Part shown: in pieces, positions 11,237-60,476 of the stretch
Position numbering within the stretch: the first letter of the stretch is position 1
How the letters are laid out: every line of letters begins with the position of its first letter
From: Defluviitaleaceae bacterium
GTDB lineage: Bacteria > Bacillota > Clostridia > Lachnospirales > WRAX01
Length of the DNA: 64,000 nt
Assembly: GCA_009784575.1 (NCBI GenBank)
Contig: WRBK01000007.1
Span: 1 to 64,000, forward strand
Direction: 5' to 3'
Translations under genes and position numbers: made by a program
Notes under the pieces: generated by a model
Database searches by the model: none
The model's input: only the letters and a program-made list of their open reading frames with translations
Told to the model about the DNA's origin: nothing

Positions 11237-12223
11237 ATGAAAGAACTAAATAATCACATAAAAACAGGCAATTTTGCCAGATGCTACCTCCTTTTTGGCG
11301 AAGAATCCTTTTTGCTAGACCGCTGGCGCAAAAGCCTTGTTTCCGCTATATTGCCTGAAGATGCTAGGGATATGAATATGGAGATATTTGCTGGCAAAGC
11401 AGATGTAACGCGGATAATGGAAGCAGCCGAAACCATGCCATTTTTGGCAGAACACCGCCTGATTATAGTAGAGGATAGCGGGCTTTTTCAAAGTGGACGC
11501 AAAGATGATTCGGAAGCCATGGCGAGCTTTGTGGAGGACATACCAGAAAGTACCATAATCATATTTTCCGAAAAAGATGTGGACAAGCGCGGGCGGCTGT
11601 ATAAACGCGCCAACACAAATGGGCTTGCGCTGGAGGCAAAAACACCAAAAGAAGCGGACTTGGCAGACTGGGCAGCAAAGTTATGCGCATCTTTTGGGAC
11701 TGAAATGCCTAGGTCCGTGGCGGCATATCTTGCGCGAACAGCACCTGTGGATATGGCTCTCTTGTATAACGAAGTGGCAAAGTTAGCAGCCTACAAATTA
11801 GGCGGTGAAATAACAACTGCTGATATTGATGCTATTTGTACAAAGTCGCTAGAAGCAAAGATTTTTGACCTAATGCGCTTCATTGGCAATAAAGATGCAA
11901 AACGGGCGGCGGCTATGTATGCAAATCTCATAGCGGCAAAGGAAAGCCCACTTATGGTGCTGACCATGATAGCGCGGCAGTTTAGGTATTACCTGCAATG
12001 CACATATTTAGCACCCAAAATGTCACAAAAGGACATAGCATCAAAACTTTCGCTACATCCCTTTGCTGTCAGAGAATTTGTGGAAGGTGGGCGCAATTTT
12101 TCGCGTGAAGCTATGGTGAAAGCCTTAGAAAACTGCTTAGAAACAGATTATGCTATAAAAACAGGGCAGATGGCGGATGAGTTAGCCGTAGAGATTTTGA
12201 TTATTAAGACTTGCGCGGAATAA
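11237..12223 (+). CDS. holA: DNA polymerase III delta subunit
   Basis: A 328-aa clamp-loader subunit that opens the beta clamp. It begins with the family's CYLLFGEESFLLDRW near residue 17. The middle has AETMPFLAEHRLIIVED, and the C-terminal helical domain contains LMRFIGNKDAKRAAAMYA and MIARQFRYYLQ. The length is standard. It follows comEC by 12 bases with ribosome site GGGGTGA, the normal comEC-holA pairing of Firmicutes. The usual rpsT neighbour is absent and a motility-type promoter overlaps its 3' end. Confidence 0.92.
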   Translation: MKELNNHIKTGNFARCYLLFGEESFLLDRWRKSLVSAILPEDARDMNMEIFAGKADVTRIMEAAETMPFLAEHRLIIVEDSGLFQSGRKDDSEAMASFVEDIPESTIIIFSEKDVDKRGRLYKRANTNGLALEAKTPKEADLADWAAKLCASFGTEMPRSVAAYLARTAPVDMALLYNEVAKLAAYKLGGEITTADIDAICTKSLEAKIFDLMRFIGNKDAKRAAAMYANLIAAKESPLMVLTMIARQFRYYLQCTYLAPKMSQKDIASKLSLHPFAVREFVEGGRNFSREAMVKALENCLETDYAIKTGQMADELAVEILIIKTCAE

Positions 12224-12231
12224 GCCGATAT
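12205..12231 (+). promoter_or_regulatory. Sigma-D (FliA)-type flagellar promoter
   Basis: TAAG 12205-12208, a 15-base spacer, and GCCGATAT 12224-12231 match the sigma-D consensus TAAA-N15-GCCGATAA at all but two positions. It is the same sequence pair, with the same spacing, as the promoter before the flagellin transcript at 57647-57673. A sigma-A-like pair (TTGCGC 12211-12216, 17 bases, TATAAT 12234-12239) overlaps it. It overlaps the holA stop codon and points to the GNAT gene and the YjfB-type motility gene. Confidence 0.6.
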
Positions 12232-12248
12232 GGTATAATGGGTATAGT

Positions 12249-12752
12249 GTGAAAGGATGTGGCAACATAGTAACTTTGAAACCAATAACATCATGGCAAG
12301 AGTACGAGGCACTCATAAAATTGGAAACCCATGAAGAGCAAGAAGAATTTATCGGTTCAAATTTGAAGTGCTTTGCAGATGCTTTCGTTTGGCTTGAAAC
12401 TTCGGGCAACAAACCCATTCTATTAGGTGTTTATGATGGTAATATACCTATAGGGCTAACCATGATTAGCTACAACACAGCGGATGAACATGGAGTTGAA
12501 GGGCTTGATGAATCCCTGTATTACATCTGCCGATTTATGATTGATAAAAACTATCAAGGCAAGGGTTATGGCAAAGCTGCACTTGCTCAAATAATTGAGC
12601 TGGTGAGAGCTGAAAAGCCCCTAGGTCAAGCTGGCTGGCTTTACGTTTCGGTTCACAAAGGAAATCCTGCCACCCAACTTTACCAAAGCGTTGGCTTCAC
12701 AGAAACAGGTGATGGTAACGGGCTTGAAAACGACATGCGTATGCGGATTTAA
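12249..12752 (+). CDS. GNAT-family N-acetyltransferase
   Basis: A protein of about 160 aa transferring an acetyl group from acetyl-CoA to an unknown amine. The acetyl-CoA binding motif is MIDKNYQGKGYGKAALAQII (Q/R-x-x-G-x-G/A), followed by NPATQLYQSVGFTETG, the usual C-terminal strand. The start is uncertain: GTG 12249 would be nearly leaderless relative to the promoter above, and the family normally begins near TTG 12276. It is the first gene after a sigma-D-type promoter, so a link to motility, for example flagellar protein modification, is possible but not shown. Confidence 0.8.
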   Translation: MKGCGNIVTLKPITSWQEYEALIKLETHEEQEEFIGSNLKCFADAFVWLETSGNKPILLGVYDGNIPIGLTMISYNTADEHGVEGLDESLYYICRFMIDKNYQGKGYGKAALAQIIELVRAEKPLGQAGWLYVSVHKGNPATQLYQSVGFTETGDGNGLENDMRMRI

Positions 12753-12790
12753 TACACTATAGCAAACGACAATGAAAAACATTGAAGCAA

Positions 12791-12824
12791 GCCGAAACAA
12801 CCAATGCTCCAAAGGTGTTTCGGC
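12791..12824. repeat. Nine-base-stem inverted repeat
   Basis: GCCGAAACA at 12791-12799 and TGTTTCGGC at 12816-12824 are perfect inverted copies around a 16-base loop. No T-run follows, so it is not a simple terminator. It lies between the GNAT and YjfB genes and could be a processing or attenuation hairpin. Confidence 0.4.
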
Positions 12825-12891
12825 ACAGACTGAAACGATTTTGAATGTCGCTTGCGATACATTCACATAACAGATACAGGAGGTATAGATT

Positions 12892-13092
12892 ATGGACACA
12901 ATGGCAATTGCAACACTTTCTACACAAATGGCTCAACAAAACCTAATGCAGGAGATAAGCATTGGTGTAATGAGAAATGCTATGGACCACGCAGAGCAAA
13001 CAGCGGAAATGATGGCAGATATGCTACAAACGGCAAGCGTGCCGCCCGTAGGCTTTGATGGGCTTGGTGCTATGCTTGATATTATGGTATAG
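12892..13092 (+). CDS. YjfB-family putative motility protein
   Basis: A 66-aa protein: a short N-terminal segment ATLSTQMAQQNLMQEISIGV, then MRNAMDHAEQTAEMM and a Met/Gly-rich end. Length and layout fit the small YjfB family (putative motility proteins made in flagellated Firmicutes under sigma-D). The molecular role is not known. An excellent ribosome site AGGAGG lies 9 bases before the ATG. It lies 660 bases downstream of a sigma-D-type promoter, which supports the family call. Confidence 0.7.
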   Translation: MDTMAIATLSTQMAQQNLMQEISIGVMRNAMDHAEQTAEMMADMLQTASVPPVGFDGLGAMLDIMV

Positions 13093-13111
13093 TTAATTTT
13101 AAAAACACTTT

Positions 13112-13145
13112 GCCCGCTATTTTAGATGGATTTGCGGGCGTTGCT
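13112..13145 (+). terminator. Probable terminator after the YjfB gene
   Basis: GCCCGC 13112-13117 pairs with GCGGGC 13134-13139, followed by a T-rich but broken tail (GTTGCTTTG). A TATAAT at 13153-13158 just beyond it could start the next gene. Confidence 0.4.
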
Positions 13146-13173
13146 TTGTGTATATAATGGAGGTGTATTACAC

Positions 13174-13383
13174 ATGAAACAAAAATTTGTGCCGCTTTCC
13201 AAACGGTCGAAGAAAGAGAAAAAAGAATACCACGCAATGCAACGCAGAGACTGGGGCAACCTAAACCCCGCAACAAAAAAGACTCCAAATCTAAAAGCAT
13301 ATAACAGAAAAAAATCCAGACAACGGTGGTGTGAGCATGAACAACCGAGTTTGGATTTTTTGATTTTGTCAGGAGCGACATAA
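13174..13383 (+). CDS. Small basic protein of unknown function
   Basis: A 69-aa strongly basic protein beginning MKQKFVPLSKRSKKEKKEYH, with NPATKKTPNLKAYNRKKSRQRW in the middle and SLDFLILSGAT at the end. The start is fixed by TGGAGGTG nine bases before ATG 13174; the longer frame from 13126 lacks a ribosome site. The charge pattern (about a third K/R) suggests binding of nucleic acid or the ribosome. I do not recognise a family with certainty. A short TATAAT at 13153 gives it a possible promoter of its own. Confidence 0.6.
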   Translation: MKQKFVPLSKRSKKEKKEYHAMQRRDWGNLNPATKKTPNLKAYNRKKSRQRWCEHEQPSLDFLILSGAT

Positions 13384-56541: not shown

Positions 56542-57468
56542 TTAATTGATGAGCTGAAGCAATTGCTGTGGTCTTGCGTTTGCTTGCGCCATTATACCCA
56601 TGCCAGCTTGGTTTAGGATATTGTGTGTAGATAGGCGCATCATCTCATATGCCATATCGGTATCCATAACCCTAGAAAGCGATTGTGAGGTAGCTACCAC
56701 GGCAGATTGCAAGCCAGACGATGTATATTCAAAACGGTTAATAAAGCCACCGATATGTGCTCTATTTCGTGAAACTTGGTCTATAGCGGCATCTAGCGCC
56801 TCGAGTGCCACGCTTGCCATGCCAGGGCAAGAAACCGTCAAGTACTCCTGTGCAGTGCTTGTTATTGCTGGCGTGCCTGACCATGCGGCAACGGCATCGC
56901 TCCAAGGCGTGTCAGTTGCATCAGGCATGAAATGTGGGCGCAAATCCGTAGGTACATCTGCTATACCCAAGTCCCATGGTCTAAAAGGAGGCAAGCTAAC
57001 AGCTATGGACATATGTTGTCTGCTGCCTGCTTGTATGCGAAGATTTTGCACCTCGCCATTAAGCAAACGTATATTATTAAATTCTACTTTACGTGTAACA
57101 TCTTCAAGCTCGGCTATAAGTGAGTCCACCTCTGCTTGTATGTTTTGTCTGTCCATCTCGCCATATGTATCGTTTGCAGCTTGCACAGCCAGCTCGCGTA
57201 TGCGCTGTAACATGTTATGTACATCTTGTAGGGCGGCATCGGCGGTTTCTAACATAGATGTGCCATCTAGCACATTTCTGTCTGCCATATTCATAGCATC
57301 TATTTGTCTGCGCATATGTAGAGAAATAGCCATGCCAGCTGGGTCATCCCCTGCGCTATTTATACGAAAGCCGCTAGATAGGCGCATTGTGGATGTTGCT
57401 ATATTGTTGTTTGTTCTTGTTAGTTGTGTATGCACTCTTAAAGCAGCAATATTATCAACTATTTTCAT
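56542..57468 (-). CDS. hag: Flagellin
   Basis: A 308-aa filament subunit with conserved D0/D1 ends: IVDNIAALRVHTQLTRTNNN then LSSGFRINSAGDDPAGMAIS at the N-terminus, and ALDAAIDQVSRNRAHIGGFI and ILNQAGMGIMAQANARPQQL at the C-terminus, with a short variable middle (about residues 170-220). The family's SAGDDPAG and ANARPQQLL are intact. ATG 57468 follows GAGGAGG. It overlaps the preceding small gene by 14 bases. Confidence 0.96.
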   Translation of the reverse strand: MKIVDNIAALRVHTQLTRTNNNIATSTMRLSSGFRINSAGDDPAGMAISLHMRRQIDAMNMADRNVLDGTSMLETADAALQDVHNMLQRIRELAVQAANDTYGEMDRQNIQAEVDSLIAELEDVTRKVEFNNIRLLNGEVQNLRIQAGSRQHMSIAVSLPPFRPWDLGIADVPTDLRPHFMPDATDTPWSDAVAAWSGTPAITSTAQEYLTVSCPGMASVALEALDAAIDQVSRNRAHIGGFINRFEYTSSGLQSAVVATSQSLSRVMDTDMAYEMMRLSTHNILNQAGMGIMAQANARPQQLLQLIN

Positions 57469-57601
57469 GGCGTTTTTCCTCCTCAAAGCGAGTTATTTTA
57501 TTTACAAATTCTTTTTCTGATTTTTCGATAAATTTCATTATAACAGAGACAGCCATGGACACATCCTTGGGTATTTTCTTGTCCTTATTGGTATTTTGCA
57601 T
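57455..57601 (-). CDS. Small protein overlapping the flagellin gene
   Basis: A 48-aa frame: MQNTNKDKKIPKDVSMAVSV then IMKFIEKSEKEFVNKI and a charged tail. AAAGGGG is 10 bases before the ATG at 57601. It ends inside the first codons of flagellin, so the two are coupled. It is the first gene after the sigma-D-type promoter. It is predicted amphipathic-helical; function unknown, possibly a translational regulator or accessory to flagellin synthesis. Confidence 0.6.
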   Translation of the reverse strand: MQNTNKDKKIPKDVSMAVSVIMKFIEKSEKEFVNKITRFEEEKRHENS

Positions 57602-57644
57602 TTCGGCCATCCCCTTTCTATTGCGACATTGTCGCTCACATATA

Positions 57645-60476
57645 CTATATCGGCAAATATGTATGCGCACTTAACTGCTTTTTAATCGCGGCAGAATCAG
57701 CAAAACTAACATCGACACTCTCAAAACCTAAATCCATCATCATATTTTCCAAATCTTGCTTGTTTTCAGATAGAAACTGATTTGCTTCATTATTGGATGC
57801 AAAGCGGATATGAGCTGCGCCATTAGTTAGGTTTACGAGACCCTGAACATCTCCCATGGCGGTCTTGAGAGCCATGTAAAGCGTGACACCCCTCTCGTCA
57901 TCCATGCTCATATTTTCATTTATAACATACATAGCAACATCGGCTATGCGCCCGTTAAAACGCATAGCAAAGCTATAGTCCGCTGTGTTTTCTAGCATCA
58001 TTTGGCGGAAATTTAGATTTTGCATTAACATATCTAGCTTCGTGATTTTTTCTGTGTTTTCTGTGTTTTCTGTGGATTGCTCAATTTGATTCATTAGGTT
58101 TTCGTTGAGTTCGGCAGAGGTTATGCCTTCGGTCAATGCTCCTAATGTAGTGTCCATCAAGCCATCGACTGCTGTGGATAATTCTGTTTCATCAAGTGCT
58201 TGCAAATCTTCATCTAGCTTGCGGTCGCGGTATGCTTTTAGCTGACGTATATTTGGTAATGTAACAGGCAAACCCATGCTTTGTAGCATACGCGCATTTT
58301 CTTTGCCATTTTGCATTTCTTCTATGGAGCGGTTTACGGCTTCTATATCCAACTCGTCTGCTATCTCTCCTGCCTCCTTCATTTCGCGGGCTATGTCCTC
58401 TAGCTTAGTTACAGAGGTAGCGAGAGGGTCTGTTAGCGACTCGCTTTGTACAAAATGTGCAAGAGGTTTTGGTGTAGCGGCGGAGATGAAACTAGTAACC
58501 AGATGCTTTGCATAATATGTGCCGTCATCAATAGAATAGTTGATGCTGTTGCGCCTGCCGCTTGTGGCATGAAAATTCTTAGAGAAGTCCAGCAAGTTTT
58601 GCAAGGTCATTTCTATACCAGCATTTACAGCAAAACCAATGCCAGCACCGCTATTTTTGGATACTTTATTAAGCATTTGGTAAATCTCAATTACCTTTGC
58701 GCGCACATCTTCTGTTATGTCGCCCACTTTATCCATTTCTGCAATATTTTTATAAAGCATTTCATTTTCATTTGTACCAAAGCTGTCATTGTACTTTGCT
58801 ATTTGCTCCAGAAGTTCATCTACATGCAGGGCAGAGGGGTTATGACCATCTGCTATCATTTGTGCTACCATGCGTGGATGCAATTTGTTTTGCACATCGG
58901 CAATCTTGGCATCGATGGTCTTTATCTGCAAGAGATTTTCGGCGTTGATATCCATGTTGTTCATGGTAAGGATTTTTGCGGCGCGAACGCTATGTATATC
59001 GTCTGAAAGTCCCATTTGGCGCAAAAGTGGCGCGAATTGCTCTGCTAGCTTATTAAATGTGTCGCCATGCTTCATGCTGGCCACGGTGGCATTTTTATCG
59101 TATTTGCGGCTTGCTATTAGGCTCTCTAGCCCTTGTAGTGTGAAGTCGAGGTCGGCGCGGTTTTGTGCTATCGCACCGAAATCTATAAAGCTGGCGAAAG
59201 GCAGTGTTAGAACACTTTTAAAAGTGTCAAGGATTGTTCTTTGATTTTCTGCTGTGTTATGCTCTTTGCCTAGCTCACGCAAAGCCGCCAACAGCTCGGC
59301 TTCTCTTTCGCGTAGCTGTTTTAGGGCTTCTATTTGTGGGTCTAGGTCTATTTCTAGGTCGGTATTCATAAGAGCGAGATTTGCTTCGTAAGACATAGCA
59401 AGGCGCGCCTCTGCCATTTCTAGTTGATGGTCTATGTATTTTTGCTCGTTGCTTTGGCTATGCTGCTCAGCATTGTAAATATCAAGGCTACCAATGCTTT
59501 GACCGTTATAATCGGCATCCATAGCATTTTGTGTTAGCGTATCCAAATTCACATTTCCTTCAATATCAGAAAGAAAAATCAGGCGGTCGAAATTATCAAT
59601 ATTTAGGTCTATGTTGTTATCAAGTAAAAAGCGTGCGCGGCTAAGGTTTTTGGCGGTGTCTTCCAAGCTTTCGCGCTCAAAAAAGGCGACAATATCTTTT
59701 TGGATATTTTGCCAATCCTTATCAGGCAAGGGGTTTGCTGTTGCCCCGCCGCTGTGTTTGTACACATATAGGTTATCAAGCGTTATTTCTGTGCCATTTT
59801 GAAGCATACGCGCTATTTGCTCATCGCCCATATCCATTATGCCGTCTAATTTGCTATGCAACTCATCTGTTATCTTCTGGCTGTTTTGTGCCACGGCGGC
59901 ATCTAGCTGACTTGTTACATTATCCAACATAGTTATTGAGATTTTGTCGATATTAACACCTGATGCTGCAAGCTGCGCCATTGCCGCACCGCGAGCGTTG
60001 CCTGCTATGCGGTCTATGCTACGGCTAAGCTTTGCTACAGCACGGTCAGCCTTTTCGCGCGCTTGTGCGCTGCTTTCGGATAAGGTGGCGGCATCTAGTG
60101 GATTCTGGGGCTTGGCAACTAGGTCATTTTGTACCATGAGGTCTTGTAAGCTTTGAGACGAATACATATGTGTTAGGAAACTCTGGCTGTTGGCATCGGG
60201 AAAGACCTGTCGCAAAGCTGTTTGACCATCATTGCCGTCATGTGACAGCTCAAAAAATACTGTATCGCCAACCTCGCCAATCACCTCACCACGGCGAATG
60301 TTTAGGCTTTCTCCATTTTCTAATGTAAGCATTGTTCCTGCATCATTTTTTTGCGCGATAATAGCAGAAATCAAGCCGTTTTCAGGCAAATTTGGCGCAA
60401 GGCTTCTGTTTCTAGGGGCTAGCGCATGGGGTCTTGCCGCTTGTTGATTTATACTAAAGATTTGATTATTTGTCAT
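57645..60476 (-). CDS. Large flagellum-associated repeat protein (DUF6240-like)
   Basis: A 943-aa protein. The Arg/Pro-rich N-terminal start resembles a FliK-type exported protein, then an OB-like region (DAGTMLTLENGESLNIRRGE) and about six helical repeats of the form 'LL..gI.ltl.Nl..lk': RMLQNGTEITLDNLYVY, FLLDNNIDLNIDNFDRL, ILTMNNMDINAENLLQI, AVNAGIEMTLQNLLDFS and MLQSMGLPVTLPNIRQL. This matches DUF6240-type proteins that I associate with flagella of Lachnospirales, possibly a hook-length-type function. The C-terminal domain is acidic, ending near YLPI. AAAGGAGG ribosome site. It lies upstream of the flagellin promoter. Confidence 0.6.
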   Translation of the reverse strand: MTNNQIFSINQQAARPHALAPRNRSLAPNLPENGLISAIIAQKNDAGTMLTLENGESLNIRRGEVIGEVGDTVFFELSHDGNDGQTALRQVFPDANSQSFLTHMYSSQSLQDLMVQNDLVAKPQNPLDAATLSESSAQAREKADRAVAKLSRSIDRIAGNARGAAMAQLAASGVNIDKISITMLDNVTSQLDAAVAQNSQKITDELHSKLDGIMDMGDEQIARMLQNGTEITLDNLYVYKHSGGATANPLPDKDWQNIQKDIVAFFERESLEDTAKNLSRARFLLDNNIDLNIDNFDRLIFLSDIEGNVNLDTLTQNAMDADYNGQSIGSLDIYNAEQHSQSNEQKYIDHQLEMAEARLAMSYEANLALMNTDLEIDLDPQIEALKQLREREAELLAALRELGKEHNTAENQRTILDTFKSVLTLPFASFIDFGAIAQNRADLDFTLQGLESLIASRKYDKNATVASMKHGDTFNKLAEQFAPLLRQMGLSDDIHSVRAAKILTMNNMDINAENLLQIKTIDAKIADVQNKLHPRMVAQMIADGHNPSALHVDELLEQIAKYNDSFGTNENEMLYKNIAEMDKVGDITEDVRAKVIEIYQMLNKVSKNSGAGIGFAVNAGIEMTLQNLLDFSKNFHATSGRRNSINYSIDDGTYYAKHLVTSFISAATPKPLAHFVQSESLTDPLATSVTKLEDIAREMKEAGEIADELDIEAVNRSIEEMQNGKENARMLQSMGLPVTLPNIRQLKAYRDRKLDEDLQALDETELSTAVDGLMDTTLGALTEGITSAELNENLMNQIEQSTENTENTEKITKLDMLMQNLNFRQMMLENTADYSFAMRFNGRIADVAMYVINENMSMDDERGVTLYMALKTAMGDVQGLVNLTNGAAHIRFASNNEANQFLSENKQDLENMMMDLGFESVDVSFADSAAIKKQLSAHTYLPI
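57647..57673 (-). promoter_or_regulatory. Sigma-D (FliA)-type promoter of the flagellin transcript
   Basis: On the minus strand TAAG (complement of 57670-57673), 15 bases, GCCGATAT (complement of 57647-57654). It lies in the 3' end of the DUF6240-like gene and drives the small peptide gene, flagellin and fliS. A small GCGAC...GTCGC hairpin (57622-57634) would be in the leader. Confidence 0.8.

Follow-up and report, generated by a model that had tools for sequence, protein, structure and literature searches.

In Bacillus subtilis, the gene yjfB is under the control of sigma-D, the factor (FliA/sigma-28) of the late flagellar promoters. A search of the literature found no paper showing sigma-D control of yjfB. 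In the part of one study that was available, YjfB is placed in a sub-module of sigma-28 genes (PMC11607428), and in the available part of another yjfB is merely listed in an expression table (PMC4326333). For the promoters themselves, the B. subtilis consensus is quoted as TAAA-N13-16-GCCGATAW in an excerpt of a third study, which also reports SigD-like promoters for flgM and fliC of C. difficile (PMC3865298).

The window analysed here is a stretch of 64,000 nucleotides, positions 1 to 64,000 of contig WRBK01000007.1 of Defluviitaleaceae bacterium (GCA_009784575.1, hereafter G000). An earlier note on this DNA had pointed to a sigma-D-type promoter, TAAG-N15-GCCGATAT, at 12205-12231 of the forward strand, with the same boxes and spacing as the promoter of the flagellin transcript at 57647-57673 of the reverse strand. 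The agreement is exact at both sites. The first is made of TAAG (12205-12208), a spacer of 15 nucleotides and GCCGATAT (12224-12231), and conforms to the pattern TAAR-N13-16-GCCGATAW. The narrower pattern TAAR-N15-GCCGATAT matches these two sites only within the window and is never found in 100 shuffles of it. With a consensus score whose weights were set by the author after the known consensus, both sites obtain 19.1 and are the two best of the window, both strands considered, while the third-ranked site scores 15.0.

The scan of the whole genome that had been suggested for this motif showed no enrichment. TAAR-N13-17-GCCGATA occurs 13 times, against 28 times for a backwards control, and TAAR-N15-SCCGATAW with at most one mismatch 112 times against 136. 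The frequency of the motif was dropped as evidence for a promoter, since the counts do not exceed those of the control, and position, context and conservation must decide instead. TAAR-N15-SCCGATAW has seven exact matches in the genome, the two sites under study and five others (L141, L142, L145, L146 and L147), four of which were judged by eye to sit within longer open frames running in the same direction. The copy in L142 (1501-1527, G000:C5:2830) lies within a frame of 334 aa and also 174 nt upstream of a frame of 348 aa; it could still be a promoter. The copy in L145 is followed only by a frame of 109 aa at +218, judged unconvincing by eye. A related site, TAAC-N15-GCCGATAT (L150 1501-1527, G000:C1:35257), stands 61 nt upstream of a frame of 479 aa that appears by eye to be response-regulator-like, and is followed by AGTATTATATAAG, resembling the flagellin promoter.

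The cognate sigma factor FliA/SigD is encoded in the genome (FliA_WhiG, TIGR02479, 264.7 bits for a cut-off of 189.6), together with FlgM (38.3 bits for a cut-off of 25). A box TAAT-N16-GCCGATAA is located 37 nt upstream of the flgM start. Five matches to flagellin domains were obtained, four of them above the cut-off. The flagellin gene of the window (56542-57486, reverse strand, frame as listed) is among the latter with 135.3 bits for PF00669, and the NCBIfam flagellin models among the matches listed for it are all below their cut-offs; its true start is probably an ATG slightly downstream of the listed one. A small frame was noticed by eye between this gene and its promoter (57486-57620, reverse strand). 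In the sister species of the same genus (G001), both boxes and the spacing of the flagellin promoter are identical. Among the flagellin and MCP leaders of relatives, only the box of a G001 flagellin leader at L130 is quoted; these rows were left uncounted, the automatic starts being wrong at a number of loci, L039 and L120 included. In G000, no site above 8 was found in the 200-260 nt scanned before the MCP genes of C2, C7 and C23 and the flagellin genes of C25 and C28, nor any above 10 in the leaders of flgL, flgK and fliW, in a scan that left out the partial flagellin match at C20. Both genomes are incomplete drafts (81.3% for G000 and 67% for G001).

Upstream of the site lies holA (11237-12223, forward strand, as are all features of this locus), which encodes the DNA polymerase III delta subunit, as indicated by the Pfam domain DNA_pol3_delta with its C-terminal domain and by a G001 orthologue with the same neighbours. 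TAAG is part of the holA codons and only the -10 box is outside the gene, whose stop codon is at 12221-12223; conservation of this -35 box is confounded because it is also coding sequence. A second promoter, of sigma-A type, is interlaced with the first. Its extended -10 box TGGTATAAT (12231-12239), with TG at 12231-12232, overlaps the sigma-D-type site, and TTGCGC (12211-12216), also within the 3' end of holA, is 17 nt upstream of TATAAT. In the element TTGCGC-N17-TATAAT (12211-12239), a TG-N-TATAAT box is preceded by a -35 box whose distance falls in the range of 16-18 nt, and the hexamers are common to G001, with p=0.030 there. It is absent from a stricter promoter scan, TTGCGC matching TTGACA at three of six positions.

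Downstream come a GNAT acetyltransferase frame (12249-12752), a palindromic repeat (~12758-12859), AGGAGG (12878-12883) as the likely ribosome-binding site of yjfB, yjfB itself (12892-13092) and a conserved small frame, orf85 (13126-13383), which has no Pfam match and serves as the right-hand anchor of the comparisons below. The two genes expected behind the site are confirmed by domain matches above the cut-offs, PF00583 for the GNAT frame (46.2 bits for 20.7) and PF14070, YjfB_motility, for yjfB (56 bits for 27). Directly before yjfB only a weak candidate for a new promoter is seen, TTCACA-N18-TAGATT (p=0.075). Rfam models gave only MIR474 and CRISPR-DR10 over 12150-13150, both below their gathering scores and taken as chance.

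The sister species carries the order comEC-holA-yjfB-orf85 (L056), with no GNAT gene between holA and yjfB. There, TAAG-ACTTGCGCAAAATAT-GACGATAT, again with a spacer of 15 nt and again at the end of holA, stands 28 nt upstream of yjfB and is followed by GATATAATGGGCATAGGAGG. Its -10 box, GACGATAT, differs from the GCCGATAT of the window, and both the sigma-D-type box and TATAAT are retained in the two genomes. The layout of the window is that of G001 up to GGGTATAG, after which come the GNAT gene, the repeat, AGGAGG and yjfB. Just past the holA stop of the window, 21 of 24 bases (12224-12247) match G001, where the full holA alignment gives 72%; by eye, however, holA of G001 continues through the -10 region to a TAA inside TATAAT, and TAAG is in holA codons in both species, so that some of these matches may be due to coding.

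Because the G001 element precedes yjfB without a GNAT gene, and because yjfB leaders elsewhere are enriched in such boxes, the element at 12205-12239 is best read as an inherited yjfB promoter. With good but incomplete confidence, this promoter would have a sigma-D core and an overlapping sigma-A element, the GNAT gene and the repeat having arrived later between it and yjfB. The shared element, the absence of the GNAT gene from the sister species and the copies of the repeat described below are direct results of the comparison. The opposite history, a GNAT gene ancestral between holA and yjfB and lost in G001, could draw on the fact that only two members of the genus with flagellin and a holA-yjfB locus are compared, but it appears highly improbable. 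In seven of ten yjfB leaders of the family, a distance of 18-32 nt separates the end of the best sigma-A-type element from the yjfB start (six with p<0.05, and L051 with p=0.095), which makes a promoter near yjfB the usual state. In addition, another relative carries other genes between holA and orf85, without a match to the GNAT of the window.

This relative, L171 (Defluviitaleaceae bacterium isolate Emb289P1bin130), has a HolA 77% identical to that of the window and an orf85 homologue (E = 6.7e-33). Neither YjfB nor the GNAT of the window finds a match in the locus, and no flagellin match was found in its genome, which may be the same as G002. The frames between holA and the orf85 homologue were named by eye as P-loop kinase-like, membrane and GNAT-like. 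The sigma-D spacer is interrupted by another palindromic element (L171 4984-5153), and TATAAT is missing; by eye, the flanks give TAAG-N15-GCCGATAT when the insert is left out. This single draft genome suggests that a dual promoter decayed after the loss of the gene behind it. In L173, the next relative by HolA (64%), the locus contains neither YjfB nor orf85, and no flagellin was found in the genome.

The leaders of yjfB were surveyed over the 120 nt before the gene at 59 loci, window included, 49 of them outside the family and 10 inside, with p values against shuffles. By this definition the site before the GNAT gene is not counted in the row of the window. A sigma-D-type box with p<0.05 was detected in 18 of the 49 outside leaders (in one of them, L187, over the ribosome-binding site) and in three of the ten inside, the loci not being independent, as several come from one genus. 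Start positions were reset by pattern at five loci, and L011 and L030 kept their automatic start. Scores of at least 10 occur in 16 of the 49 outside leaders and in 86 of 2960 other windows of 120 nt from the same loci. Such an element is found before the same gene in G001, with GACGATAT, in other families by enrichment and in only three of ten leaders within the family, to which the site before the GNAT gene of the window is to be added; at six of the nine other family leaders no sigma-D box reaches p<0.05. The identification of 12205-12231 as a sigma-D-type promoter is supported by this enrichment, by the G001 element before yjfB, by the flagellin promoter of G001 and by the flgM box.

It might be argued, in line with the refutation that the earlier note had named for itself, that only the overlapping sigma-A promoter is used and that the sigma-D-like box is a chance product of the spacer and of holA codons. 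Sigma-A-type elements are commoner in the yjfB leaders of the family (six of ten at p<0.05, four of these six without a sigma-D box), and the lack of genome-wide enrichment of the sigma-D motif agrees with such a view. This explanation is nevertheless unlikely: GCCGATAT is made of bases outside the gene, at the exact spacing; CGATAT is retained in G001 and GCCGATAT in L171; the family members G008 and G014 also score for sigma-D; and boxes of this type are strongly enriched before yjfB in other families. Dual control of the inherited promoter by sigma-A and sigma-D is likely, since the extended -10 box overlaps the site and the sigma-A type is the commoner one in the family leaders. In G004, which has ten flagellin matches, the contig end leaves 112 nt of the yjfB leader; this stretch shows the sigma-A type only, and sigma-A may thus dominate in the family.

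The earlier note had further placed the GNAT enzyme in the late flagellar regulon, with acetylation of flagellar protein or glycan as its possible role. It is true that the promoter is followed first by the GNAT gene, which shares the strand of yjfB, and that its domain is above the Pfam cut-off. The membership of the regulon is nonetheless not supported by the comparisons. The gene is absent before yjfB of G001, and a GNAT gene adjoins yjfB at a single one of the 59 loci, the window itself (30 of these loci reaching only ~1.5 kb on each side), with no recurrent linkage to yjfB. The best PDB matches are spermine/spermidine acetyltransferases (2fl4 and 9dsb, E = 2e-09), of the BltD/PaiA type, and the third is a bifunctional AAC/APH. 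Five NCBIfam models match below their cut-offs (two RimI models, PaiA, AAC(6')-Ie and ArsN1), none of them flagellar, and no match to a GNAT family of flagella or flagellin glycans was obtained; the proposed acetylation rests on the position of the gene alone. At the homologous position the frame also lacks a usual start codon. In an alignment of 18 homologue rows, from which two internal matches were dropped, the start position is ATG in 14 rows and GTG, ATT (directly preceded by an ATG codon), TTG and ATA (L094) in the other four, and the window has ATA (12267-12269) there. AAAGGA (12252-12257), the likely ribosome-binding site, is 9 nt before this ATA. With ATA at the homologous start, initiation may be weak, or may take place at GTG 12249, where the frame begins, or at TTG 12276. 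A functional role of this enzyme within the flagellar regulon, through acetylation of flagellin, of the flagellin glycan or of some other protein of motility, is accordingly given very little credit. Relatives of this GNAT are common in the family and often in tandem, the nearest one (55% identical) being in G012; tandem arrays of paralogues are seen at L091 (G014:C16) and L090 (G012:C18). An integron cassette was considered and rejected, the repeats in these two arrays being mostly at gene spacing, by eye, with no shared recombination site suggested.

The palindromic repeat, which is MITE-like, is present in three copies in G000, those of C3 and C13 matching the window at 91% and 76%. Alignment of the three shows terminal inverted repeats, with the ends TATAGCAAACGACA and TGTCGCTTGCGATA, and a TA target duplication at the flanks is only suggested. 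The segment 12750-12891 folds at -29.7 kcal/mol (z = -3.41), as low as none of 200 shuffles. One terminator-like site (12816-12837) lies between the GNAT gene and yjfB, the shuffle mean being 0.8. A related stretch, 80% identical over 50 nt, follows the sigma-D-type box in the leader of a G001 flagellin gene (L130 1375-1424).

These data can be assembled into a scenario. In the ancestral state, TAAG-N15-GCCGATAT, overlapped by TTGCGC-N17-TATAAT, would drive yjfB. In the lineage of the window, the GNAT gene and, behind it, the palindromic repeat would have been placed between the start site and the ribosome-binding site of yjfB, and the present transcript would read GNAT, repeat hairpin, yjfB, with both sigma factors presumably using the element. 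The GNAT gene, which could be co-transcribed with yjfB by position, would owe its transcription to position only, as a case of promoter capture, and would have no action on flagella; having seemingly slipped in between promoter and yjfB, it gives little reason to think that the enzyme modifies them. More speculatively, the junction between holA and yjfB could be a recurrent site of gene capture on a dual sigma-A/sigma-D motility promoter remodelled by mobile palindromes, the incoming genes being the GNAT in the window and the P-loop kinase-like set in L171; this extension is doubtful.

If this gene-capture reading were true, the result in the window would be a polyamine-type acetyltransferase timed with motility, and a yjfB placed behind a hairpin. 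Function may be wrongly deduced from a promoter that two genes have in common, since a gene behind a flagellar promoter may be an insertion. For yjfB, which encodes an uncharacterised small protein, the survey also brings sequence support as a target of sigma-D, drawn from several families within the order, and the overlapping sigma-A/sigma-D promoter is now named and testable.

Compared with known systems, the repeat resembles MITE-type palindromic repeats in its length (about 100-123 bp), its terminal inverted repeats and its several dispersed copies. The GNAT frame shares its domain and its best PDB sequence match with the spermine/spermidine acetyltransferases 2fl4 and 9dsb, but its 22.3 bits for PaiA are far under the NCBIfam cut-off of 250. 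As in the part of the C. difficile study cited above (PMC3865298), flgM and a flagellin gene both have SigD-like boxes here. Like the yjfB of the sigma-28 sub-module (PMC11607428), the gene of the window encodes a protein of the PF14070 family and has a box of sigma-D type in front of it; it differs in being second in its presumed transcript. The site itself has the TAAR-N15-GCCGATAW structure of late flagellar promoters of the sigma-D (FliA/sigma-28) class and departs from the usual ones in two ways: a sigma-A box of the extended -10 kind overlaps it, and a GNAT gene and a repeat stand between it and yjfB.
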